The position numbers and the translations under genes were made by a program. Below, one piece after another: positions 30,188 to 50,258 of a stretch of DNA of 64,000 nt (positions are counted from its first letter, which is position 1; each line of letters starts with the position of its first letter). The notes below the pieces were generated by a model. That model searched no databases, had not been told where the DNA came from, and saw nothing but the letters and a program-made list of their open reading frames with translations. Source of the DNA: Haloplanus salinarum (GTDB taxonomy: Archaea > Halobacteriota > Halobacteria > Halobacteriales > Haloferacaceae); assembly GCF_024498175.1 (NCBI RefSeq), contig NZ_CP101823.1:310001-374000 (forward strand), read 5' to 3'.

Positions 30188-31069
30188 TCACTCCCCGCGG
30201 AACGCCCGAATCGCCGGCCGGAAGCCGTCCCGAACGGTCGGATAGCGGAAATCGTAGCCGAGTTCGTGGAGTCGGTCGTTGGCACACCGCTTGTTGGCCC
30301 GGGCGCGACGGCTCACCGACCCTTCCGCCGCCGCCCGCTCCGCGACGGTCCACTTCTCGGGCGGCGAGACGCCACACTCCTCGGCCAGCCAGTCGGCGAA
30401 CTCCCACTTCGAGACCGGCTCGTCGTCGACGGCGAGTACCACCTCGCCGCGGGCCACGTCCGCCGTCAGGAGGTGGGCCACGGCGCCCGCCGCGTCGTCA
30501 CCGTGGATCGAGTTGAGGTAGCCGTCGGTCACCGGGCCGTCGAGGTAGCGGTCCATCCGGTACCGATCCGGACCGTAGAGCCCGCCGAATCTGACGACCG
30601 TCCCGTCGATTCCCCGGTCGGCCGCCTCCGATAGGGCGATCCGCTCGGCCTCCAGCAGGACGCGCTGTCGCTCCGTGGCCGGGTCGGGCGTCGTCGACTC
30701 GTCGACCCAGTCGCCCTCGTGATCGCCGTACACGCCGGTGCTCGACGTGTACACCAGTCGATCCGGTGACGACGCACGGTCGCCGAAGGTCTCGACGACC
30801 GTTCGTAGCCCGTCGACGTACGCCGTCCGTGCGGCGTCGGCGCCGCGACCGCCCGCGCTCGCGGCGTACACCAGCCAGTCGGCATCGGGGACCGACGCGA
30901 GCGACGCCGCGTCCGTCAGGTCGGCACGGACTGCCTCGAATCCCGCGTCCTCGATGGCAGCGAGGCCGTCGTCCGAGCGGCGGACACCGACCACGTCGTG
31001 ACCCGCGTCGGTCAGCCGGCGGCCGAGGCGGAGCCCGACGTATCCACACCCGAGGATGGCGACTCGCAC
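30188..31069 (-). CDS. Extended SDR, NAD-dependent epimerase/dehydratase-like (YeeZ type)
   Basis: 293 residues with an N-terminal Rossmann motif MRVAILGCGYVGLRLGRRLT, VYAASAGGRGAD, then RLVYTSSTGVYGDHEGDWVD and FGGLYGPDRYRMDRYL. The Tyr-x-x-x-Lys pair of classical SDRs is not evident, as in YeeZ-like members. Function unknown. It is five bases from the DUF5791-like gene and may be the tail of the pilus-like operon transcript. Confidence 0.85.
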   Translation of the reverse strand: MRVAILGCGYVGLRLGRRLTDAGHDVVGVRRSDDGLAAIEDAGFEAVRADLTDAASLASVPDADWLVYAASAGGRGADAARTAYVDGLRTVVETFGDRASSPDRLVYTSSTGVYGDHEGDWVDESTTPDPATERQRVLLEAERIALSEAADRGIDGTVVRFGGLYGPDRYRMDRYLDGPVTDGYLNSIHGDDAAGAVAHLLTADVARGEVVLAVDDEPVSKWEFADWLAEECGVSPPEKWTVAERAAAEGSVSRRARANKRCANDRLHELGYDFRYPTVRDGFRPAIRAFRGE

Positions 31070-31074
31070 GGCGA

Positions 31075-31506
31075 TCAGGGGCCCGACCGCCCCGCCACGT
31101 AGCCGTGGATCGATGCGAGTTCGTCGAGCGTCATCCGGATCCGACCCTCGATCGCTTGTTGGATCTCCTGACCCGAGAGGTCGAGGTCGACGTTCGAGGC
31201 GATGGTGTCGACGTCGAGGACACCCGTCGTCATCCCCATCAGCAGGTAGTCGCGGACCTCTTGGACGATCACGTCCGCGTCCCGGCCCTCGGAGTCGACT
31301 GCGAGGATGGCCGCCGCTTCCGACAGCGTCATCGACGGCGACTCCCCACTCGCGAGCGCGGCGACCGACTCGGTCGGGAGGTCGGCCGCCGTGGCGACCC
31401 GTTCGATCCCCTGGGCATCGATTACGGCACGGAGTTCGGCGTCGTAGGCCTCGCGGAGTTGTTGTGGCGACAGCGTCTCGGGTTCGTCGACCGCTTCGTG
31501 GAGCAT
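31075..31506 (-). CDS. DUF5791-like haloarchaeal protein with HTH features
   Basis: A 143-residue acidic protein: MLHEAVDEPETLSPQQLREA, then GIERVATAADLPTESVAALA, which looks like a helix-turn-helix, and MTLSEAAAILAVDSEGRDAD. I associate it with DUF5791, from memory. It lies 32 bases downstream of the large pilus-cluster protein on the same strand. It may be a small regulator of that operon, which is an inference from position. ATG 31506. Confidence 0.78.
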   Translation of the reverse strand: MLHEAVDEPETLSPQQLREAYDAELRAVIDAQGIERVATAADLPTESVAALASGESPSMTLSEAAAILAVDSEGRDADVIVQEVRDYLLMGMTTGVLDVDTIASNVDLDLSGQEIQQAIEGRIRMTLDELASIHGYVAGRSGP

Positions 31507-31538
31507 ACGTTCGATGGGCGCCCCGTGATCAAAAGGCT

Positions 31539-34500
31539 TCACTCCGAGGCGGGACAGGCGTCGGCCGCCCAGGACGTACAACCGGGATCCGGCCAGCTTC
31601 CCCCTCGCTCGTCGGCGTCGCCGTCGACGTCGCCCACGCCGTTCCGGTACGGGGGAACCGCGACGGCGACGACCGTCCGCGTCCGGAAGTCGATCCGCTC
31701 GTCGCGGCCGAGCCGTTCGTCCCGTCCGTCGCCGTCCACGTCCAGTCGGACGGTCGAGCCGTCGCGGACGTACCGGCTCGCTCCCCCGGGCGTCGGCGCA
31801 CCACGCCGGGTTCGAAGCGTGAACCGCGCGTAGGCGCCCCGCACCTGCACCTCCCAGACGTTGACCGTCGCGTACCAGTACCCCGGAACGGGGGCGACCG
31901 GGATCCCGGCGGGTACCGCGCCGAGCGTCTCGTTCAAGCGCCCGCGGGCCAGCCGCTCCGTCGCCGCCTCGCTCGCCCGCTCCAGCGACCGGTCTCGCAT
32001 CCGAGTCAGCGTCTCCGACACCAGGTCCTCCGCGACGGTCGTCGTGTCGGTTCGCAGGCTGTCGGCGACCGCCGTGTCGAGTCGCCGCTCCAGTCGATCC
32101 ACACGCTCCGGTTGCGGGGACGCAGCCCTGCGGTCCGCGGCGACGGCTATCGCCCCGGCGAGCGAGCCGTTGGCCGCGGCGAGCGCCCGTCGCCCGGGAT
32201 CCGGCCACCGATCGAAGGCGGCCGCGACCGCCGCCTCGGCCTCGGGCCGGGTGAGCCGCGTGCCGTTCCGGACGGCGCGGCGCGCCCGCCCCCGCAATCC
32301 GTCGAGCGACGCCGCGACGGCCCGCGAGAGCGCCCGCCGTCGGTCGCGAACGGAGCCGTTCGCGACCGGTTCGGACGCGACGAGAACCCGTGCGGCGGTC
32401 CGAAGCCTGACCCGCGACGGATCGGCCGTCACCGACGCCGACACCGCGTCCGCGGCGTCGCCGTACGGCGCCGCGAACAGGTTGACGTTCCTCGTCGCGA
32501 GGGGACGGTACGGACGCGACGGCGGCACGCCCCGCGCCCGTTCGTGACTCACCGACTCGACGGTGAGGTACGCGGGCGAACCGTCGGGGACGACGCCGAC
32601 GGGACCGCCGGGCGGACTGCCGGCGATCCGATCCCGTGGACTCACGACCGGCGTCCGCCGCGTTTCGACGATCCGCCGGAGGGTCCGTGGCGATTCGACG
32701 CCCACGCGCCCGAGGACGTCGCCGAACGTCTCCCGTGTCCGTTCGTGCGTCCGCGCACGCCGTTCCAGTCGGTCGATCGTCGCATCGAGCAACGCCACCC
32801 GCGCGTTGACGCGGGCCCGGTCCGCCGCTCCCCGATACTGCTCCGGTGGGTCGACCAACGCCGCCCGCCGCTCGCGGAGCGTGGCCGCCAGTTTCGCCGG
32901 CGGGTTGACCGTGTAGGTCGCCACTCGGCCCGCACGAACCTCGACCGAGCGGTCCGCGAGCTGCTCCCGAAGCCGCGTCAGGTCGTCGTACGTCCACGAC
33001 CGGAGGTCGGACGGCCGATCACCGTACACCGCCGCCTCGGTCGTGCCGAGGCTCGCGTTGGCGACGGCCGCCGCCACGGCGTCCCGTCCGCCCTGTCGCT
33101 CCACCAGCCGTGTCTCCACCTTCTCGGGTACGTCCGCGAGGTTCGGCCCGTCGAGTGCTCCGCCGCGCTCGAAGCGCGGCGCAGTCGGGCGGTCGGGCGC
33201 CGAGCCGTTCGGCGCGTAGGACCCCACGACGGCCACGCCGACCCGGTAGCGCTCGGTCCACGTCCCGCCCGTCGTTAGCGTGTCGTTGCCGCGCTCCCAG
33301 GTCCACCTGATCCGCCGGTCGAGGACCACGTGCCGGGAGAACGAGTCGAACTGTCGTTCGCCGTCCCCGGCCGTCGGCGCCATCCCGACGCTCGACTGCA
33401 CCTCCGGGTCGGTCGAGACGCTCGTGTCGGTCAGGCGCCACTCCGGGCCGGGTGGGTCCGGCTCCGGCCGCGGTTCGTGGTAGGTTCGATCGCGGCTCGT
33501 CCGGAGCGCCGCCTCGACGCGGTAGGCGGCACGGAGCGCGGCGTCGAGCGACCGGTTCGAAGGCACCGACTCGATCCGTAGCCCCGCCAACGCACGTCCG
33601 GCCAGCGGCCCCACGTCGACGTCGAGCCGGCGGTCCGGCGAGGGGGCCGACGCTCCACGGCGGCCGGGAAGTTCCCCCGACATGTTCGCCCGCCGGTTCG
33701 GCCGCGGGAGGACGCGTTTCGCCCGCTGCCCGTCGACCGACGACGCCGCCGTCACGTCCTCGACGCCGAGTTCCAGCGTCGCCCGTCGCATCGCCCGGCG
33801 TCCGGCGGGGTCGCTCCGCCCGAACACCGCCCGCTGGGTTTCGAGCAACGCCCCGTTGGTCGTCGTCTCCACGTGTCGGGTGCCGACGACGTTGGCGATG
33901 GGGAGACCCCCGTACTGGGCGTACCCCCGTGCCCAGGCGACCGGGTAGAGCCGTGCGGTCAGCCGTCGGCCCAGCCCCGGGCCCTCCAGCGGACGCCGGT
34001 TCAGCCGCGTCTCGAAGGCCGACGCACGGTCGTGGAGCGCGAGGACGGGTGTCGAGACGGTCACGGTCCGGGTTCGATTCTCCCGGGCGACGAGACGCTC
34101 CCCGTCACGAACCGTCAGCGTCAGGTTCCGCACCGTCACCCGGAGCGCCGTTCCGTTCTCGACGCGGGTCACCGTCACTTGATCCATGGCGCGGCGGAGT
34201 TCCGCCGGCGTCGTGGCCGCGGGAACCGACGCGACGGCCGTCACCGACCCCCGCCGGTAGCGGGTCGCGTCCAAGCGCTCGCGCAGACGGAGGTAGATCC
34301 GGAGCCGGAGCGCGTCACGGAACGGACGCCGGTCGGAAAGCAGCCGCCCGTACGGCGTCGCGGCGGGGTCGGTGACGGGCTCGGCGGCGGCCGCCCGCGC
34401 CGCCTCGCCGACGGCCGATCGCAGGGCCGCCGTCGACCCGGCCGACGCGCGGTCCATCGCCGCTGCGGCCCCGCGGTCCACCCGGCTCGGTCCCTGCGTG

Positions 34501-34604
34501 GTCACCGCCGCCGCGTACGTCGACGCCCCGACCAGCAACAGGACGCCGAGCAGGGCAAAGGGGACGCGCGCCCGCCGATCCTCGGCCAACCGGGTCACGG
34601 CCAC
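31539..34604 (-). CDS. Large single-pass extracellular protein of the pilus-like cluster (DUF7286-like)
   Basis: 1021 residues. One N-terminal membrane segment (RVPFALLGVLLLVGASTYAA, about 14-33) is followed by a very long Arg/Ala/Asp-rich extracellular region with several N-glycosylation sequons (NGT, NLT, NRT, NAS, NGS). A YWYATVNVWEVQVRGAYARF block and DGDGRDERLGRDERID lie near the C-terminus. No enzyme motif is seen. Its place after the ATPase, TadC-like and pilin-like genes (10-base overlap with the previous gene) suggests an assembly, tip or scaffold component. I recall homologues under DUF7286; the number is unverified. Confidence 0.82.
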   Translation of the reverse strand: MAVTRLAEDRRARVPFALLGVLLLVGASTYAAAVTTQGPSRVDRGAAAAMDRASAGSTAALRSAVGEAARAAAAEPVTDPAATPYGRLLSDRRPFRDALRLRIYLRLRERLDATRYRRGSVTAVASVPAATTPAELRRAMDQVTVTRVENGTALRVTVRNLTLTVRDGERLVARENRTRTVTVSTPVLALHDRASAFETRLNRRPLEGPGLGRRLTARLYPVAWARGYAQYGGLPIANVVGTRHVETTTNGALLETQRAVFGRSDPAGRRAMRRATLELGVEDVTAASSVDGQRAKRVLPRPNRRANMSGELPGRRGASAPSPDRRLDVDVGPLAGRALAGLRIESVPSNRSLDAALRAAYRVEAALRTSRDRTYHEPRPEPDPPGPEWRLTDTSVSTDPEVQSSVGMAPTAGDGERQFDSFSRHVVLDRRIRWTWERGNDTLTTGGTWTERYRVGVAVVGSYAPNGSAPDRPTAPRFERGGALDGPNLADVPEKVETRLVERQGGRDAVAAAVANASLGTTEAAVYGDRPSDLRSWTYDDLTRLREQLADRSVEVRAGRVATYTVNPPAKLAATLRERRAALVDPPEQYRGAADRARVNARVALLDATIDRLERRARTHERTRETFGDVLGRVGVESPRTLRRIVETRRTPVVSPRDRIAGSPPGGPVGVVPDGSPAYLTVESVSHERARGVPPSRPYRPLATRNVNLFAAPYGDAADAVSASVTADPSRVRLRTAARVLVASEPVANGSVRDRRRALSRAVAASLDGLRGRARRAVRNGTRLTRPEAEAAVAAAFDRWPDPGRRALAAANGSLAGAIAVAADRRAASPQPERVDRLERRLDTAVADSLRTDTTTVAEDLVSETLTRMRDRSLERASEAATERLARGRLNETLGAVPAGIPVAPVPGYWYATVNVWEVQVRGAYARFTLRTRRGAPTPGGASRYVRDGSTVRLDVDGDGRDERLGRDERIDFRTRTVVAVAVPPYRNGVGDVDGDADERGGSWPDPGCTSWAADACPASE

Positions 34605-35446
34605 GTCCTCACGACGATTCGTACGCGGCCGACGCCGACGCGTTCGGCGGCCGCCGACGCGGACGCGTTCGAGCCACGCAGGTCCCGGGCCACCCGCTCG
34701 GAGAGCGCGGCGGCGAGGCGGTCGTTCGCGTCGTCGACGTCGCCGTCGGCCGGGGTCGCGCGTCCGTCGGCGCCGAATCGACGCTCGGCGAGCCGATACC
34801 GGTGGCGGACGAGCGAAGACGCCCGTCCGCCGGCCGCCTGACGGGTCCGCGTCGGCGGGAACAGTCCATCGACGACTCCGGCCGCGACGGCGTCGGCGAC
34901 GCCCGCCATGCCGTTCGTCGCCGCGGCCGTCCGCGCGTCGGCCCGCGTCGCGGGGAGGCCACTCGGCACCGTGAGCGTCGCCGCGTGGACCGACACGTCC
35001 GGCGGTGGCCGACTCCCGACGGCGATCCGTCCGGTCACCGACGCGTTCGGATACGGTCGCCAGACCGCAGTGATCCGCGTGTTGTTGGTCCGAGCGGCCG
35101 CTTCGACGGCCCGGACGACGGCTCGAGAGAGGCCCGCCCGCTCGTGTGACAACGGCCGGCCGCCGACTGTCAGTTCCCCCACCGCCGCCCGCGCCAGGAG
35201 TTCCGCCAGCGTCCCGTGGGCCGTCCGGCCGAACGCGTCGTCGTCCTCCGTCCCCTCGACGTCGGTTAGTTCGGTCCGCGGCGTGAGCGTGTAGTTCACG
35301 GTCGCCGTCGACGTCGCCAACGTCGACGCGACGTCGGCCGCGCGTCCCTCGCCCGCCGGCTCCCGCGGCGTCGCCGTCGTCACCGTCACCACCGCGGCGC
35401 TGATCAACAGCAGGCAGAACACTCCGTCGAGGACGGTACTCGTCAC
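34595..35446 (-). CDS. Pilin-like single-pass protein (DUF7284-like)
   Basis: From GTG 35446 (overlapping the previous stop as GTGA) the protein reads MTSTVLDGVFCLLLISAAVV then TVTTATP. A short N-terminus ending in Gly is followed at once by a hydrophobic helix, as in prepilins and pseudopilins. The remaining 250 residues are extracellular and Ala/Thr/Arg-rich, with sequons NNT, NAS. About 283 residues. Likely a minor pilin or anchored partner of the large protein. No enzyme motif. Confidence 0.75.
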   Translation of the reverse strand: MTSTVLDGVFCLLLISAAVVTVTTATPREPAGEGRAADVASTLATSTATVNYTLTPRTELTDVEGTEDDDAFGRTAHGTLAELLARAAVGELTVGGRPLSHERAGLSRAVVRAVEAAARTNNTRITAVWRPYPNASVTGRIAVGSRPPPDVSVHAATLTVPSGLPATRADARTAAATNGMAGVADAVAAGVVDGLFPPTRTRQAAGGRASSLVRHRYRLAERRFGADGRATPADGDVDDANDRLAAALSERVARDLRGSNASASAAAERVGVGRVRIVVRTWP

Positions 35447-35841
35447 GACCACACCTCCACGCGGACGCGCCCGGGTCGCACCCGTCCCGGGCCCAGACGG
35501 ACGCCCACGGACCGACTCGCCGCGTCGGTCGTCGCGCCCGGCGACGGGGTCGCCCCCGCGTGCCACCGCCGGCCGGCCGCGGCGACGGTCACGTTCACCC
35601 GGTATCCGTCCGGGCCGGCGCGGTGGGCCCGCGCCGTCCGTGTCGGGTCGGCGACCCCGCCGGTCACGAGGACGTCGGTGACCCGGTCGAGGGTCGGTCC
35701 GGCGAGTTCCCGTTCGTCGCGGCGCTCGGCGCCGACGTCGTCGAGCGCGACGGCGTACGCCGAGACGGCGCTCGACACCGCCAGCAGGACCGCGAGGGCG
35801 GCGACCGGTTCGACCTGCCCCCTAGCCGACGAGCGTGACAT
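35443..35841 (-). CDS. Small pilin-like protein with class III-type signal (DUF7285-like)
   Basis: 132 residues beginning MSRSSARGQVEPVAALAVLL then AVSSAVSAYAVAL. The basic stretch ending RG, followed by Q-V-E-P and an uninterrupted hydrophobic helix, resembles an archaeal prepilin-peptidase site, with cleavage after Gly8 and a Glu near the start of the mature helix. The rest is extracellular. It overlaps the previous gene by 20 bases. ATG 35841 is chosen because the 31 residues upstream lie inside the neighbour. Confidence 0.75.
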   Translation of the reverse strand: MSRSSARGQVEPVAALAVLLAVSSAVSAYAVALDDVGAERRDERELAGPTLDRVTDVLVTGGVADPTRTARAHRAGPDGYRVNVTVAAAGRRWHAGATPSPGATTDAASRSVGVRLGPGRVRPGRVRVEVWS

Positions 35842-36289
35842 CACACCCCTCCCAGACGACGCGTCGGACGAGCAGTGGGCCGTCGACCGGCCGCCACCGC
35901 GCGGCGCGGTCGCGTGCGCTCGCCGCGGCGTCACAGAGCGCCTCGGGCGAGTCGAAACGCGACGACGGCGGCGCCCCCCGGAGGACGTCGGTCAGCGCCG
36001 CCGCTCGCGCCGCTGGCGTCACCGGACCGAACGCGAACGTCGCGTGAGTGGTGCCGGCGTCGTTCCGGAGGCCGAGTCGGTTCGGCGCGATTCGAACCGC
36101 CCGCGCGTCGAGCGGGTGTTCGGCCGTGACGGGGGCCGAGGCGCTCGCCGCCCGGTCGACCGTGTCGGCGGCGTCGGCCGCGGCCGGCGGCGGAGCGGTC
36201 GGCAACGATGCGCCGACGCCGAACAGCGCGGCGCTCGCCAGCGATAGCCCGAGCCAGGTGTACCACGCGTCGACCGGAACGTCGAACAT
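35822..36289 (-). CDS. Small single-pass protein of the pilus-like cluster (DUF7283-like)
   Basis: From ATG 36289: MFDVPVDAWYTWLGLSLASA then ALFGVGASLP gives one N-terminal helix of about 20 residues, followed by a 120-residue extracellular domain with a single pair of Cys (ALCDAAAS and WEGCDVTLVG), which could form a disulfide. 155 residues. It lies 34 bases after the TadC-like gene on the same strand. No homologous function is known to me. Confidence 0.75.
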   Translation of the reverse strand: MFDVPVDAWYTWLGLSLASAALFGVGASLPTAPPPAAADAADTVDRAASASAPVTAEHPLDARAVRIAPNRLGLRNDAGTTHATFAFGPVTPAARAAALTDVLRGAPPSSRFDSPEALCDAAASARDRAARWRPVDGPLLVRRVVWEGCDVTLVG

Positions 36290-36323
36290 GGCACGCGGTG
36301 GCCGCGTCACCGCACTTGAACCT

Positions 36324-38051
36324 TCACAGGAAGACGCCGGCCCCGACGTACGCCGCGAGGTAAGCGACGGTCGCGAGCCAGAGCGCGGCGCCGACGCGGT
36401 AGCCGACGAGCGTCCGGTCGAGTCCGTGTGTCAGTCCCGTCGAGAGGGTCGTGAGCGCGGCCGCGAGCCAGAGCACGTACGCACCCACCGCGACGCCCAG
36501 GGAGCCGGTCGGGAGGGGCGCGGCACCGAACCCGGCGCTCGTCCCGGTGTGTGCGACGCGGGCCGAGAGGGCCACCGTCGCGCCGCCGACCAGTGGACCG
36601 AAGACGGCTGCGGTGTTGGCGAGCGTGTCGGTCACCTTCGAAAGCTGCCGCCGGGCCGTGCGCTCCACCCGGCCGAGTTCCTCGACGTGTTCCGCCGTCG
36701 CGACCAACGCCTCGCCCGCCGGCTCCCCCTCGGTCGCCGCGAGGCCGACGAGGGTCACCATCTCCTCGGTTCGACGGCTCGGCAGGTCGTTCGAGGGTCC
36801 TCCGTCGCCACGAAAGGCGGCCGTCACCGTGAGGCCCAGCCGCCGCTGTCGGCGTACCGCCTCGTCGAGCAGGTCGCCGGTCGAACCCTCGATCCGTCGT
36901 GCCGCCCCGTCGAGCGCCGACTCGACGGCCTCTCCGGCTGCTACCCGTCGGCCGATCAGATACAGCGCGTCGTCGAGCTCCGACTCGACCGCGCGCACCC
37001 GCTTTCTGACCTCGTTGGCGGCGTGAAAGCGGACCACGAGCACAGTGCCGACGCCGAGTCCGACCCCGGCTATCGGGGCCGCCCACGGTGCCACCACCCG
37101 CGTGGCGACGACGCCGCCGCCCGCGCCGGCCACGACGCCCGCCGCGAGTGCGGGCACGGGACCGTCGGGCGTCTCGGGATGGGACGCGTCGATCCGCGGC
37201 GGCGGGAAGGCGACCGGGCGGCGGGCAAGCAGCCACGCCCCGGCCCCGACCATGACGACCGGGAGGACGACGTCGTAGAGGGCGACGATCACGGCCAACG
37301 GGATGCGTGCGCCCGTCGCCCGCGCCGCGGGAAGCACACCTACGAGGGCCAGCGGGAGCAGGACGCCGAAGGCGTACAGCCCCGTGACGGGGCCGCGGAT
37401 CTCGCTCGCGAACGCCGCCAGCTCCTCCCGGGCGCCGTCGAGCGCCGCCGAAACGGCTCGGTCGAGGTGGCGCTCCCGTTCGTCGGGGGGCGCCGCCGCC
37501 GCGGCCTCTAAGCGCGAGACCGCACGCGAGAGCGCCGGGAAGGACTCGCTCCATTCCTCGTCGAAGCCGTCGAACCCGTTCCGGGGCGTGCCCGCGGCCC
37601 GTGCCACGTGGCCGTCGAGGCTGCGGGCGAGCACGCCGCGTCCGGTCCGTGCGGCGAACGCGGCCGCCCGTTCGACCGTCGGATCGATCCGCAGGCACAT
37701 CGCCGCCCGGCCGACGAGCGCCGCGGCCGACCCGAGCGCCCGCGTCCGTGCCAGACGCGCCGCCAGTCGGGGGCCGCGGTTCGCGGCGAGGGGGACGCCG
37801 GCGCCGACGGCGACGCCCGTAGCCGCGGCCACGACCCCCCATCGTGGCGTCGTCGCGACGCCCACCACCACTCCGAGGACCGCGACGACGACACCGACGA
37901 GCGTCCCCGCGACCCGCGCTGCCCGTTCGAGCGCCGGGGCGTCGACGGGCGCACGGAGGTACGCGAGCGCCCCCTCGAGGGCCGGATCGGCGGGCGTGGG
38001 CCACGGCCATCGCTGGGCGAGGGTCTCGACGACCACCGTGCCTTCGATCAT
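36324..38051 (-). CDS. TadC/GspF-like pilus assembly membrane protein
   Basis: 575 residues with a duplicated type II secretion F domain, as in archaeal PilC/TadC proteins. Several hydrophobic segments are visible (VVVAVLGVVVGVATT, LLPLALVGVLPAA, IPLAVIVALYDVVLPVVMVG, and three more at the C-terminus). Cytoplasmic helices are RVRAVESELDDALYLIGRRV and AAGEAVESALDGAARRI. The F protein couples the ATPase to subunit assembly at the membrane. It overlaps the ATPase gene by four bases. Confidence 0.85.
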   Translation of the reverse strand: MIEGTVVVETLAQRWPWPTPADPALEGALAYLRAPVDAPALERAARVAGTLVGVVVAVLGVVVGVATTPRWGVVAAATGVAVGAGVPLAANRGPRLAARLARTRALGSAAALVGRAAMCLRIDPTVERAAAFAARTGRGVLARSLDGHVARAAGTPRNGFDGFDEEWSESFPALSRAVSRLEAAAAAPPDERERHLDRAVSAALDGAREELAAFASEIRGPVTGLYAFGVLLPLALVGVLPAARATGARIPLAVIVALYDVVLPVVMVGAGAWLLARRPVAFPPPRIDASHPETPDGPVPALAAGVVAGAGGGVVATRVVAPWAAPIAGVGLGVGTVLVVRFHAANEVRKRVRAVESELDDALYLIGRRVAAGEAVESALDGAARRIEGSTGDLLDEAVRRQRRLGLTVTAAFRGDGGPSNDLPSRRTEEMVTLVGLAATEGEPAGEALVATAEHVEELGRVERTARRQLSKVTDTLANTAAVFGPLVGGATVALSARVAHTGTSAGFGAAPLPTGSLGVAVGAYVLWLAAALTTLSTGLTHGLDRTLVGYRVGAALWLATVAYLAAYVGAGVFL

Positions 38052-39955
38052 TCGGCCACCCGTTCCCGGTGGACCGCGTCGACCGCCGCCGGATCGGTTC
38101 GCTCCGTCCCCGCGAGGTTGGCGAGCAGCGAGGCCCGTTCGTCGATGACGCCGAGCACGTCGGCGTAGGACTCGCCCGGCCGCGCCAGCGACGCGACGAG
38201 ACGGCTGTTTCCACGGTCGACGACGCCGGTCGCCTCGGTGCCGTCCCCGACGGGTTCGAACAGCGATTCGAACGCGACGCCGTCCCCGGTGTCGCGCACT
38301 TCCTCGACGCTCGAAACGGTGCGTCGCTCGCCGGCCGAGAGCGTGACGAGGAAGTCCGTCGCCCCAAAGGAGGACGCGGGGACCTCGAGGTCGGACACCA
38401 CCCGTTCGAACACCGCGTCGGCGCCGTCGCCGTGGATCGTACCGAGGACGGCACTGCTCGCGGCCCCGACGCGCATCGCCTCGTAGAGCGTCGCCGCCTC
38501 CTCGCCCCGAACCTCGCCGACGACCAGCGCCCCCTCGCCGAGGCGGAGCGCGGTCCGAAGCGCCTCAGTCGGCGAGAGCGCCGGACCGTCGCCGGACTCG
38601 ACGCGGACGGTCTGGACGTCCCGGCCGGCCTCTTGGAGTCTCGCCGCCGGAAGTTCGGGCGTGTCCTCGACGACGACGGCGCGCGTCGACGGCGGGAGTT
38701 CCCACAGGAGCGCCGAGAGGAGCGTCGTCTTCCCGGCACCACGCGGTCCGGCGATCAGCCCCGCGCCGGCGCGCTCGACGGCGACCGAGCAGAGCGCCGC
38801 GGCGTCGACCGGGAGCGTCCCGTTGGCGACGAGCGCCGGGAGCGTCCACGCCTCCCGTCCGCCGGTGCGAAAGACGAACGCGTAACCGTCGCTCGCCGGG
38901 TCGGCGACGCCGGCCACGCGGACCCGCCCGTTACGGGTTCGTGTCGTCGCGTCGAGGGTCGGCGCCGCCCGCGAGAAGGCACGTCCGCTCTCCCGTCGGA
39001 ACCGGGAGGCCAGCGCTTCGGCCCCGCGACGGGTCAGGTGGACGTTCGTCGGCACCCGCTCGCCGTCGACGGCGACGCGAACCGGGTTGTCGGTGACCGG
39101 CGCCGTCACCAGCACCTCAGACACTCGCGGATCGGCGAACAGGTCCTCCAAGACGCCGTGCCCGCGGGTGTGGCGCCGGAGAACGCGCTCCACCGTCGCC
39201 ACCGACATCGATCCGTCGGCCGGCGCCACCGTCCGGACGGCACGCGAAACCGCCGCCGCGTCGTCCCCGGTCGTCGTGTCGGCGAGCCGGTCGTACGCGT
39301 CGGCGAGCGTCGTCAGTTCCGCCGCGTCCAGCCTCCACCCCGGCGGATCGAGCAGGTAGCGGTCGCTCGCCTCCGTGCGGTACCGCCGCACCGTCGCGCC
39401 CGTGCCGAGTTCGCGGCGAGCGACCAGCGTCGCGTCGCGTGGCGGGCACCGATCCAGGCGCGTGTCGGCGACCGTCGGTCCCGTCCGCGCCCCGAACGCC
39501 GCCTCGTAGCCGTCGACCCGGTCGGCGCCGGCGGCCAACCCCGTACTCGCGGCCAGCGTCGACGCGGGACCCGCGCGGCCGGTCGCGGCTCGGGCCGCCC
39601 CCAGCGGGTCGCGACGTGCCCGCTCGGCCAGTCGTTCGTCGTGGACGGCCACCCGGGCGGCGAACCGACCCGCCGCGACCAACAACCCGACCGCTCCGTC
39701 GTCGTACACCCGTTCGCGGCCACCCGCCCTGACGTGGACGGCGTCGACCCCACTGCCCGCGAGCGCGTCGACGACCGTCGCTCGACAGTCGGGGCTCGCG
39801 ACCAGGTCACCCCTCGCTGGACAGCCGTCGGCCGCCACGACGAGCGTGCCGGACCGGTCGGGGTCGTTTCCGCGGGGCGACCGAACCGCCGGGTCGCAGC
39901 CACAGCCGTCGTCAGTCTCGTCGTCCCCCTCCCGCAGTCGGTCCAGTAGACGCAT
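38048..39955 (-). CDS. Type II/IV secretion ATPase (PilB/TadA-like) with Cys-rich N-terminus
   Basis: 635 residues. The ATPase core has Walker A AGPRGAGKTTLLSALL, the Asp box VVVEDTPELP, Walker B-like ALVVGEVRGEE and the His box VLGTIHGDGADAVFERV. The N-terminal third is specific to this family and carries Cys18, Cys20, Cys45 and Cys57, unusual in a haloarchaeal protein and a possible zinc site. It powers pilin polymerisation or secretion with the TadC-like partner. ATG 39955 (MRLLDRL) is favoured over the in-frame ATG at 39979. Confidence 0.9.
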   Translation of the reverse strand: MRLLDRLREGDDETDDGCGCDPAVRSPRGNDPDRSGTLVVAADGCPARGDLVASPDCRATVVDALAGSGVDAVHVRAGGRERVYDDGAVGLLVAAGRFAARVAVHDERLAERARRDPLGAARAATGRAGPASTLAASTGLAAGADRVDGYEAAFGARTGPTVADTRLDRCPPRDATLVARRELGTGATVRRYRTEASDRYLLDPPGWRLDAAELTTLADAYDRLADTTTGDDAAAVSRAVRTVAPADGSMSVATVERVLRRHTRGHGVLEDLFADPRVSEVLVTAPVTDNPVRVAVDGERVPTNVHLTRRGAEALASRFRRESGRAFSRAAPTLDATTRTRNGRVRVAGVADPASDGYAFVFRTGGREAWTLPALVANGTLPVDAAALCSVAVERAGAGLIAGPRGAGKTTLLSALLWELPPSTRAVVVEDTPELPAARLQEAGRDVQTVRVESGDGPALSPTEALRTALRLGEGALVVGEVRGEEAATLYEAMRVGAASSAVLGTIHGDGADAVFERVVSDLEVPASSFGATDFLVTLSAGERRTVSSVEEVRDTGDGVAFESLFEPVGDGTEATGVVDRGNSRLVASLARPGESYADVLGVIDERASLLANLAGTERTDPAAVDAVHRERVAE

Positions 39956-39994
39956 GGGACGCCGTGGCCCCCCGATCACTCTTGAACCTCGGCC

Positions 39995-40429
39995 TCACCC
40001 TCGGGCGATCACGACTCCGACGCCCCGGTCCCGGACGAGCGAGACGACGAGCCGGTGTCGCCCCGGTCGTTCGAGGACGACCGGTCCCGCTGGCGTCCGG
40101 AGGTCGATTCCTCGGAGTGTCGTCCAGCGTGGCGGCCGGCCGTCGAGTCGGTAGCCGACGCGGTCCTCATCCCCCTCGATTCGCAGGCTCGCCCCCGCGG
40201 CGCTCCAGGAACGGGCCGGGAGGGAAACACGGACGATGCGTCGTGCGCCCGATACCGACGGGCGGGTGGGATCCTCGTGGGCGCGCAGCGAGTGGACCGT
40301 CCGTTCGATCCGGTCGGTGACGCCGTCGAGGTGTGTCGCCGTCCGCGACCGGCGAGCCTCGTCGATACCCGGGACGACGGCGGCGAACAGGGCGACCGAC
40401 AGCAGGACCGCGAGGACCGCGCGGATCAC
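39995..40429 (-). CDS. Small membrane-anchored protein upstream of the secretion ATPase (DUF7311-like)
   Basis: 144 residues: MIRAVLAVLLSVALFAAVVP forms an N-terminal hydrophobic helix directly followed by GIDEARRSRTATHLDGVTDR, an alpha-helical stalk like that of pseudopilins. A beta-rich domain ends with HRLVVSLVRDRGVGVVIARG. Its start overlaps the coiled-coil gene stop by four bases and it lies 39 bases before the ATPase. Probably a minor pilin or anchor; DUF number from memory. Confidence 0.75.
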   Translation of the reverse strand: MIRAVLAVLLSVALFAAVVPGIDEARRSRTATHLDGVTDRIERTVHSLRAHEDPTRPSVSGARRIVRVSLPARSWSAAGASLRIEGDEDRVGYRLDGRPPRWTTLRGIDLRTPAGPVVLERPGRHRLVVSLVRDRGVGVVIARG

Positions 40430-41127
40430 AGCAGTCGGCGGATCCGGTCGGCGAGCGTCGCGTCCGTCGTTTCGTCCTCTTCCGCCGACGCGTCCGGTCC
40501 CGTCGCCAGTTCCGTCCGGGCGGTGTCGGCCGCCGCCGCGGCGAGCGTCGAGGCGGACCGATTGCCCGCCTCCGCACGTCTTCCTGCGGCCGAACGGCAG
40601 CGTCCTTCGTCGTTCCGACCCGCGTCGGCGTCCGGGCCGGATCCGCCGGCGCGACGGCCCCGTTCGCCGTCGGCGTTCGTGGCGGACGCGCCGTTCGCGA
40701 CGCCGTCGGCCGGACGTTCGCCGTCACGCAGTGGACGGGCCATCCCCCGCCCGCTCGCGCTGTCTCGTCCCGACACCCGAGCGGCGGTGTCGCCGCCGCC
40801 CCGTCCCGAATCGGTCCCTGTCGTCCGTCCACCGTCCGTCGTCTCCCGGAGTTCGGCTTCGAGCCGTTCGACCCGGGCGATTGCGGCGTTCGCCCGACGC
40901 TCGACCGCCTCGTCGACGGCGTCGACGCCGCCGGCAAAGCCCCGGAGGGCTTGGACCGCCGCCTCCAGTTCCGTCACCCGGTCGTCCACGGCTTCGACGG
41001 TGGCCTCGACGTCGTCGAGGCGTTCCTCCAGTTCCGCCGCCTGGGGGAGGCCGTCCCAGTCGGTGGTCCGTCCGTCGGTGAGCGCCCGTTCCAGCGCGTC
41101 GACACGTTGCTCCAGGGTGTCGCTCAT
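40426..41127 (-). CDS. Coiled-coil protein, first gene of the pilus-like operon (DUF7310-like)
   Basis: 233 residues. Residues 1-100 are heptad-rich coiled coil (LEQRVDALERALTDGRTTDW, ELEERLDDVEATVEAVDDRV, TELEAAVQAL). A disordered Gly/Arg/Ser/Asp-rich linker follows, then a short C-terminal helix DATLADRIRRLL. No membrane segment, so it is cytoplasmic and could bridge the ATPase to another structure. ATG 41127 is the first gene start of the block; CetZ diverges 154 bases away. Confidence 0.75.
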   Translation of the reverse strand: MSDTLEQRVDALERALTDGRTTDWDGLPQAAELEERLDDVEATVEAVDDRVTELEAAVQALRGFAGGVDAVDEAVERRANAAIARVERLEAELRETTDGGRTTGTDSGRGGGDTAARVSGRDSASGRGMARPLRDGERPADGVANGASATNADGERGRRAGGSGPDADAGRNDEGRCRSAAGRRAEAGNRSASTLAAAAADTARTELATGPDASAEEDETTDATLADRIRRLL

Positions 41128-41280
41128 GGCCCGCGGTGGGCGCGGCATCCTTCCTAAAGTCTCGGCCGTTGGGGACGGGACGCCGTCGGGCCCGTGCCCG
41201 TGTCGTGTCGGCGGACCGGCGGCCTGCACGCTCCGAGACTCGTCGATGAATTGAAGGTCCGCAAGACGCACGTCGGACGC

Positions 41281-42363
41281 ATGAAGTCCGTCCTGATCGG
41301 TGTCGGACAGGCCGGCGGCAAGGTCGTCGACGCCCTGTCCGATTTCGACGCGCGGAACGGGTTCGGTGCGGTCACCGGTTCCCTCGCGGTCAACAGCGCC
41401 CGCTCCGACCTGCAGTCCCTCCCTCTCGATACGGTCCTGATCGGCGGGGCCGAGGTGAACGGCCACGGGGTCGGCGGTGACAACGAACTCGGCACGAAAG
41501 TGATGCGAGACGACGTACAGGAGGTGCTCGGCGCCATCGACGGCCGGGTGACCGCCCGCGCCGAGGCCATCTTCGTCGTCGCCGGCCTCGGCGGCGGCAC
41601 CGGGAGCGGCGGCGCCCCCTACCTCGTCAAGGAGCTCCAACGGATCTACGACGTGCCGGTCTACGGCCTCGGGATCCTCCCGGGCCGTGACGAGGGGGCG
41701 CTCTACCAGGTGAACGCCGGGCGGTCGCTGAAGACGCTGACCCGGGAGGCCGACGCGACCCTGCTGGTCGACAACGACGCCTGGCGATCAGCCGGCGAGA
41801 GCCTCGAATCGGGCTACGAGGCGATCAACGAACGCATCGCCCGTCGGGTCGGCCTGTTGCTCGCGGCCGGCGAGTCCGTCGACGGCGTCGGCGAGTCCGT
41901 CGTCGACAGCTCCGAGGTCATCAACACCCTCCGTGAAACGGGCGTCGCGACGCTCGGCTACGCCGCCGCCGAGTCGTCGTCGGACGCGGCAGCGAACGTG
42001 AACGTTGTCACGAGCACCACACGTCGGGCGATCCGGTCGGGGCTGAGCCTCCCCGATACGACCAGCGCCGAACGCGGACTGCTGGTCGTCGCCGGCCGTC
42101 CCGAGACCATCTCCCGGAAGGGCGTGGAGCGCGCCCGCTCCTGGCTGGAGACCGAACTCGACACGATGGAGGTTCGCGGCGGCGACTTCCCGCTCTCGGA
42201 CGACCGCCTCGCGGCGCTCGTCCTGCTCGGCGGGGTGGCGGACTCCGACCGCCTCGACGACTTCCTCGAACGGGCACGGCGGGCCGTCGAGGAGGAAAAC
42301 GAGCGGGACGACGAGGACGCCGCGTCGGCGCTCGAAGACGAACGGATCGACGGGCTCCTCTAG
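41281..42363 (+). CDS. CetZ family tubulin/FtsZ-like GTPase
   Basis: 360 residues with tubulin-superfamily motifs: VLIGVGQAGGKVVDAL at the N-terminus, GHGVGGDNELGTKVM, and the T4 loop [20 protein letters not shown]. It belongs to the euryarchaeal CetZ branch, which controls cell shape and motility, rather than FtsZ1/2. The C-terminus (EEENERDDEDAASALEDERI, then a short DGLL peptide) is a disordered tail typical of these proteins. ATG 41281 matches the conserved N-terminus. It diverges from the pilus-like operon. Confidence 0.9.
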   Translation: MKSVLIGVGQAGGKVVDALSDFDARNGFGAVTGSLAVNSARSDLQSLPLDTVLIGGAEVNGHGVGGDNELGTKVMRDDVQEVLGAIDGRVTARAEAIFVVAGLGGGTGSGGAPYLVKELQRIYDVPVYGLGILPGRDEGALYQVNAGRSLKTLTREADATLLVDNDAWRSAGESLESGYEAINERIARRVGLLLAAGESVDGVGESVVDSSEVINTLRETGVATLGYAAAESSSDAAANVNVVTSTTRRAIRSGLSLPDTTSAERGLLVVAGRPETISRKGVERARSWLETELDTMEVRGGDFPLSDDRLAALVLLGGVADSDRLDDFLERARRAVEEENERDDEDAASALEDERIDGLL

Positions 42364-50155: not shown

Positions 50156-50178
50156 CCGCGACCGGACTCGAATTCGAT

Positions 50179-50253
50179 AGCGGGATGGGATAGCCAGGAG
50201 ATTCCGCCGGGCTCATAACCCGGAGATCGGTAGTTCAAATCTACCTCCCGCTA
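50179..50253 (+). tRNA. Initiator tRNA-Met (CAU)
   Basis: 75 bases folding into a full cloverleaf: acceptor stem AGCGGGA/TCCCGCT, anticodon loop CTCATAA (CAU) on a CCGGG/CCCGG stem, and T-arm GGTAG-TTCAAAT-CTACC with discriminator A. The A1-U72 pair and three consecutive G-C pairs at the base of the anticodon loop mark it as the initiator. No intron and no encoded CCA. The following TTTTT at 50254-50258 is the terminator. Confidence 0.92.
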
Positions 50254-50258
50254 TTTTT
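50254..50258 (+). terminator. T-run terminator of the tRNA
   Basis: TTTTT directly after the mature 3' end; oligo-T runs end transcription in archaea. Confidence 0.6.

Follow-up and report, generated by a model that had tools for sequence, protein, structure and literature searches.

A PilB2/PilC2 type IV pilus regulon beside cetZ2 in Haloplanus salinarum, encoding a giant and possibly pilin-like surface protein

Introduction

What kind of machine is encoded by ten closely packed genes of the haloarchaeon Haloplanus salinarum, and what part does a protein of 1021 residues play in it? The genes lie within a stretch of 64,000 nt (positions 310,001 to 374,000 of contig NZ_CP101823.1, assembly GCF_024498175.1), here called the window and numbered from its first base. 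An earlier note, made from the sequence alone, had described a poorly characterised, pilus-like operon without a main pilin, which could form either a dedicated surface appendage or a secretion machine whose cargo was the large protein. In the present study the locus was identified with high confidence as the pil-2 regulon of haloarchaea, which encodes the PilB2/PilC2 type IV pilus and is a system already known and not new. The large protein belongs to the family DUF7286, and the overall explanation that we consider fairly likely is a type IV pilus regulon with DUF7286 as a giant pilin-like protein, probably a tip adhesin or primer.

Identity of the gene block

The ten open reading frames (ORFs) described in the earlier note are all intact and lie at the coordinates it gave, on the minus strand between 30188 and 41127 and nearly without gaps, and the ATPase motifs it listed (GPRGAGKTT, VVEDTPEL and TIHGDG) can be read in the translation. 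Above cut-off, nine of the ten products match a Pfam family, seven of these being families of the DUF type. Several features expected of a pil-2 regulon were found together: an extension ATPase, a prepilin motif encoded within the operon, and cetZ2 adjacent to it, while the coiled-coil protein (DUF7310) and the large surface protein (DUF7286) occur both here and in orthologous loci.

Apart from the window, a scan of the genome collection yielded 78 named loci of haloarchaea, and counts over 79 loci include the window. Profiles built from the 78 loci were used to map a near-universal gene order: DUF7310, DUF7311, PilB, PilC, DUF7283, DUF7285, DUF7284, DUF7286, DUF5791 and epimerase. A survey of this kind across Halobacteria had been proposed in the earlier note, and since content and order are kept in 78 other loci the block lies far beyond chance. 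Local inversions or splits occur in a few loci (L107 and L112). Apparent swaps of gene order in some others were artefacts of stop-to-stop ORF ends, and PilB/PilC seemed to be missing from three loci, for two of which the genomes were searched and PilB2 was found past the fetched stretch or on another contig; in the halophilic archaeon LT46 it lies just outside the fetched stretch, in two frames. The third of these loci is that of Haloglomus irregulare. One locus (L157, genome G005, family f4) has a complete pilus cassette and a DUF7286 with a diverged middle part, and cetZ2, DUF5791 and the epimerase were not seen within the 18 kb fetched there.

The divergent neighbour of the block (41194..42363, plus strand; PF21011) is a tubulin-like CetZ. 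It scores 487 bits against the solved structure 4b45 and 321 bits against 4b46, which we take to be CetZ2 and CetZ1 of Haloferax volcanii, respectively, and because it is far closer to the first it is identified as CetZ2. The structural match begins at residue 30 and the true start is probably near 41281, so that a divergent promoter region of 153 nt (41128..41280, no strand) lies between the starts of cetZ2 and of the pilus operon.

Brown and Duggin (2023; PMC9856176) reported that cetZ2 adjoins a pilB2/C2 type IV pilus regulon (arCOG01818), and that arCOG04674 and the epimerase arCOG03095 are kept near cetZ2 with or without the pilus genes. The DUF5791 gene (31075..31506, minus strand; PF19104, E = 2.2e-47) matches arCOG04674, a predicted transcription factor in that literature (PMC9856176), by position and published description, and the gene for a short-chain dehydrogenase/reductase or NAD-dependent epimerase (30188..31069, minus strand; PF01370, E = 2.8e-15) matches arCOG03095 by position; DUF5791 still stands beside CetZ in most genomes that lack the pilus genes. 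The locus also fits a halobacterial system listed by Makarova et al. (2016; PMC4858521), which includes a unique coiled-coil protein and a large protein of S-layer-like type. The first gene of the operon, for DUF7310 (40426..41127, minus strand; PF23991, E = 1.1e-26), likely encodes their coiled-coil component arCOG07564, matched by description, and the locus apparently belongs to their halobacterial subclade 4F, the arCOG01818 and 4F placements being drawn from synteny and published names. In Halobacterium salinarum, pil-2 contains a pilB2 of the same arCOG, forms one transcript and encodes three FlaFind-positive prepilins, and its pilB2 is up-regulated 8.5-fold in adherent cells, at a low absolute level (Losensky et al., 2015; PMC4292770). 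A pilB2 knockout study was not found in the literature searched. 'Poorly characterised' therefore still holds for function, but not for the locus, for which a catalogue entry, co-transcription and up-regulation in adherent Hbt. salinarum are on record (PMC4292770, PMC4858521, PMC9856176). The idea of a dedicated surface appendage is borne out, this being a recognised type IV pilus regulon.

The motor (38048..39979, minus strand; PF00437, E = 9.5e-17) is a PilB2-type extension ATPase of the T2SSE/VirB11/TadA superfamily, as seen from its score of 61.1 bits against PF00437 (cut-off 24.9). Its top match among solved structures was 2oap, entered as 'Type II secretion system protein' (E = 1.5e-24), with CpaF and FlaI next. 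Scores fell far below cut-off for the TadA family (TIGR03819, 125.8 bits, cut-off 373.15) and for the archaellum motor (NF058587, 69.6 bits, cut-off 550), and the ten genes gave no match to a Flp-type pilin or secretin, and none by Pfam to an archaellin or FlaH, so that neither a Tad system nor an archaellum is indicated. Next to the ATPase, here and in nearly all loci, is a probable PilC2/TadC-like polytopic platform protein of 575 aa (36324..38051, minus strand) with at least seven transmembrane-like stretches; it has orthologues in 76 of the 79 loci and no Pfam match at E ≤ 1, T2SSF included. Across the genome, which is 3.45 Mb in size and close to that of Haloplanus ruber (DUF7286 80% identical), six PF00437 matches lie above cut-off, this ATPase included, and a seventh below it. 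One PibD-type prepilin peptidase match was detected, and Pilin_N has eight matches elsewhere in the genome, seven of them above cut-off; these proteins could provide a shaft pilin in trans.

The giant protein DUF7286

DUF7286 (31539..34604, minus strand) matches PF23957 with 1190 bits across the full model, and its conservation was assessed from 26 aligned sequences in which orthologues are 39–80% identical to the window copy. The best-conserved 15-mer is at the N-terminus, residues 11–25 (R-x-R-[VI]-P-F-A-L-x-G-V-L-L-L-V), with a majority fraction of 0.93 compared to a mean of 0.58, and the stretch is retained in divergent homologues from other families. The pattern [KR][GA].[VIL]P is found in 75 of 79 N-termini but in only 27 of 1580 internal segments, and in the PilA-type pilins of this genome, which read RAVSPVIGVILMV, the proline stands at the same distance as in DUF7286. 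Since a pilin-type H-domain is the most conserved part, with this N-terminal motif and PilA-like proline spacing, DUF7286 is read as a giant pilin-like subunit, an assignment from sequence that we regard as somewhat probable. A position at the pilus tip is also probable from the comparison with known systems, and is held with less confidence than the subunit role. Such a size has precedents: class III proteins of more than 1000 residues were predicted earlier (PMC4371748), and the backbone of the TadE/F/G tip complex of bacterial Tad pili is the large pilin TadG (PMC12075869). Near the C-terminus, a DxDxDG motif (residues about 955–963) was detected by pattern in 55 of the 79 loci, and D955, D957, D959 and G960 are invariant in the 26 sequences, which suggests calcium binding.

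Several observations weigh against a giant subunit. The AlphaFold model of the protein has a helix at residues 16–33 and a mean predicted local distance difference test score (pLDDT) of 77.6, but most of the N-terminal hydrophobic helix lies below 50. An arginine directly follows the putative cleavage point, where a small or hydrophobic residue would be expected, and so is atypical at +1. No Foldseek match to the model was obtained at E ≤ 0.001, and the top VIA Z score, 5.5, was on fragments and is not interpretable. In addition, pil-2 of Hbt. salinarum was reported to span 6.9 kb and seven genes. A full DUF7286 would hardly seem to fit into this length, and that lineage may have a truncated giant subunit or be able to do without it. 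The sequence itself gave no match to solved structures at E ≤ 1, and the modelled fold would neither support nor refute a giant subunit.

The same residues bear on the view of DUF7286 as an envelope or S-layer-like protein anchored in the membrane, forming a collar or scaffold around the pilus base and staying outside the filament. The basic residues before the helix and the arginine at +1 would allow an uncleaved signal-anchor topology, and the large protein was labelled 'S-layer like protein' by Makarova et al. (PMC4858521). A plain anchor, however, needs neither the extreme conservation of the helix and of R-x-R-[VI]-P-F-A-L-x-G nor a proline at +3 as in the PilA proteins of this genome, and we think this view unlikely. 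Less probable still is a type II-like secretion machine, with a piston made up of the ATPase, the platform and the small pilins that would export and release DUF7286 as cargo. A large exported protein is indeed encoded in the same operon, and pseudopili of type II secretion systems share the same core (PMC10191384), but DUF7286 keeps a near-invariant pilin-type hydrophobic segment, unlike released substrates, and its being the most conserved segment of the protein suits a filament subunit better. The ten genes also include no secretin-like gene, though an archaeal cell without an outer membrane would not be expected to need one.

Small pilin-like proteins

The claim that the operon has no main pilin was wrong, or at least incomplete, as DUF7285 (35443..35841, minus strand; PF23956, E = 7.2e-36) carries a class III prepilin motif, RGQVEP in the window. 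An archaeal prepilin motif, R[GA]|Q.[ES]P..AL, is seen in its N-termini at most loci, and the pattern [KR][GA]..[ESDA]P was present in 69 of the 79. The EppA pilins of methanogens have a RAQI processing site with a +1 glutamine (PMC4371748), which the DUF7285 motif resembles. On its motif DUF7285 is classed as a prepilin, one that is probably processed by the single prepilin peptidase detected in the cell. In the AlphaFold model, with a mean pLDDT of 85.2, a helix near the N-terminus (residues 12–36) is combined with a beta-sheet head. This model has no significant match in the PDB (by Foldseek, and with VIA Z below 8), a point on the opposite side of the argument, since the pilin fold is not confirmed; no pilin was listed among the structure matches, and absence from that list does not exclude a pilin fold. 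Resemblance to alpha/beta pieces like those of ribosomal protein uS3 (top Z 7.8) was taken to be a common arrangement.

DUF7284 (34595..35446, minus strand; PF23955, E = 3e-89) is a pilin-like protein with the motif R[GA].ST..D in 34 of 79 orthologues, the window copy not being one of them. DUF7283 (35822..36289, minus strand; PF23954, E = 4.3e-53) has a moderately hydrophobic N-terminus, and comparison of its N-termini across loci gave no clear prepilin motif. The preferred reading of DUF7283, DUF7284 and DUF7285 is that of small (minor) pilins. DUF7311 (39995..40429, minus strand; PF23993, E = 2.4e-41) is also small, with a hydrophobic, transmembrane-like helix at residues 1–25. Homology among DUF7283, DUF7284, DUF7285, DUF7286, DUF7310 and DUF7311 was considered and found unsupported, with hhalign probabilities of 18% or less. 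The DUF7285 profile did match the DUF7311 frame of the window (39995–40429) with E = 1.3e-13 and that of Haloplanus ruber (L038:4116-4607) with E = 2.2e-6, although profiles compared at family level give no support for homology.

Gene organization and operon start

Most neighbouring genes overlap, by 4 nt (DUF7310/DUF7311, ATPase/PilC-like and DUF7285/DUF7284), 10 nt (DUF7284/DUF7286) or 20 nt (DUF7283/DUF7285), and the gaps are 15 nt between DUF7311 and the ATPase, 34 nt between the PilC-like protein and DUF7283, 32 nt between DUF7286 and DUF5791, and 5 nt between DUF5791 and the epimerase. A TATA-like TTYA precedes the DUF7310 ATG at -30/-31 in 38 of 51 loci, and the element GRCCA stands at -13/-14 in 28 of 51 (41128–41160 in the window); within 26 bp, GRCCA occurs in 29 loci against 5.8 expected from shuffles. 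Together the two elements would fit a conserved leaderless promoter, in which GRCCA may be an operator or initiator, and since they suit such a promoter they support 41127 as the start of DUF7310. The sole tRNA of the window, tRNA-Met (CAT anticodon), is at 50178–50254.

Loss and gain of the regulon

In a sample of 391 genomes of the class, 299 have DUF7286, and these represent 66 of 86 genera; a match was also obtained in the Methanosarcina acetivorans control. In the earlier note the large protein and the coiled-coil starter were taken as specific to this block, which is correct in that both are single copies in the genome, but not beyond it, given this wide occurrence of DUF7286. In 23 genomes where DUF7286 is absent or truncated the DUF5791 locus was inspected, and five of them retain parts of the cassette in the interval from cetZ2 (or PDE) to DUF5791: DUF7286 residues 757–1012 in G012; DUF7310 residues 3–119, DUF7311 1–69 and DUF7286 968–1014 in G125; DUF7310, DUF7311 and DUF7286 814–1012 in G235; DUF7310 and DUF7286 769–1012 in G067; and DUF7286 947–1016 in G380. 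In all five the truncated piece is the only DUF7286 match in the survey. A sixth genome, G316, has PilB in several frames, and in several others cetZ2 and DUF5791 are about 100 nt apart, leaving an empty site. G012, G067 and G235 are of the same genus and may share a single loss. Deletion-scar loci beside DUF5791 are L156, L158, L170, L172, L176 and L178.

Gene trees were compared for 46 loci that have all the genes, chosen for having both parts. The distances of the PilB+PilC+DUF7286+DUF7284 tree and of the CetZ+epimerase+DUF5791+DHH tree are correlated (0.86, with none of 999 permutations as high), and 32 of 43 splits are shared, one supported split of the pilus tree being in conflict. A recently acquired mobile element was suggested in the 2023 paper (PMC9856176), but the remnants and the matching trees, taken from sequence, favour vertical descent with repeated loss over recent gain, a conclusion new to this study. 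An ancient gain of the regulon is possible and compatible with the loss data. Repeated loss in other lineages and six PF00437 matches above cut-off in this genome could also suggest a decaying or redundant regulon of minor importance, with adhesion pili made by other PilB-PilC pairs, but this is very unlikely given ten intact frames here and a DUF7286 so widespread and strongly conserved in its residues.

Discussion

The pilus that we picture would work as follows. PilB2 would hydrolyse ATP and, together with the membrane platform PilC2, drive pilin-like subunits into a filament. Its shaft may be built from DUF7285, or from PilA-type pilins whose genes lie elsewhere. The hydrophobic helix of DUF7286 would pack in the filament or its base and bear an extracellular head of nearly 1000 residues. 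DUF7286 would most likely sit at the tip as adhesin and primer, much as TadG forms the backbone of Tad tip complexes. The expected role would be surface attachment or cell–cell contact; processing, tip position, adhesion and the choice of major pilin are points that we infer.

Among known systems, the cetZ2-side PilB2/PilC2 regulon (PMC9856176, PMC4858521) shares the ATPase, platform, pilin-like proteins, large surface protein and coiled coil, as well as the CetZ2 flank and a far end with a DUF5791-type gene and epimerase, and no difference from it was found in this genome. The pil-2 locus of Hbt. salinarum R1 (OE1347R–OE1332R; PMC4292770) is alike in PilB2 (arCOG01818), PilC2, three predicted prepilins and a single transcript. 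The bacterial Tad (type IVc) pilus (PMC12075869) also has a CpaF/TadA-type ATPase and small pilins with one very large pilin, but uses TadB plus TadC where one fused platform protein is encoded here. The PilB3-PilC3/PilA and PilB1-PilC1 pili of Hfx. volcanii have the same core machinery and PibD-processed pilins, but their PilB-C paralogues and pilin set differ from those of this locus, and the PilB3 locus is without pilins (PMC6491452).

The candidate new secretion machine can be struck off and a precise name given instead. What is added to the PilB2/PilC2 regulon is a pilin-type reading of its large protein and evidence for repeated loss in place of recent gain. Whether the regulon is ancestral and repeatedly lost or was recently acquired is now a testable question, as is the tip role of DUF7286, and the deletion scars provide natural knockouts for comparing attachment behaviour. 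We tentatively raise the further possibility that DUF7286 is a type IV pilin of about 1000 residues with a new fold, the archaeal counterpart of a TadG-like tip, which primes and caps a CetZ2-linked pilus that occurs in most genera of haloarchaea and was lost many times at one and the same site. If this is true, DUF7286 would be a lineage-wide tip for contact or adhesion, and its loss would mark changes of lifestyle.

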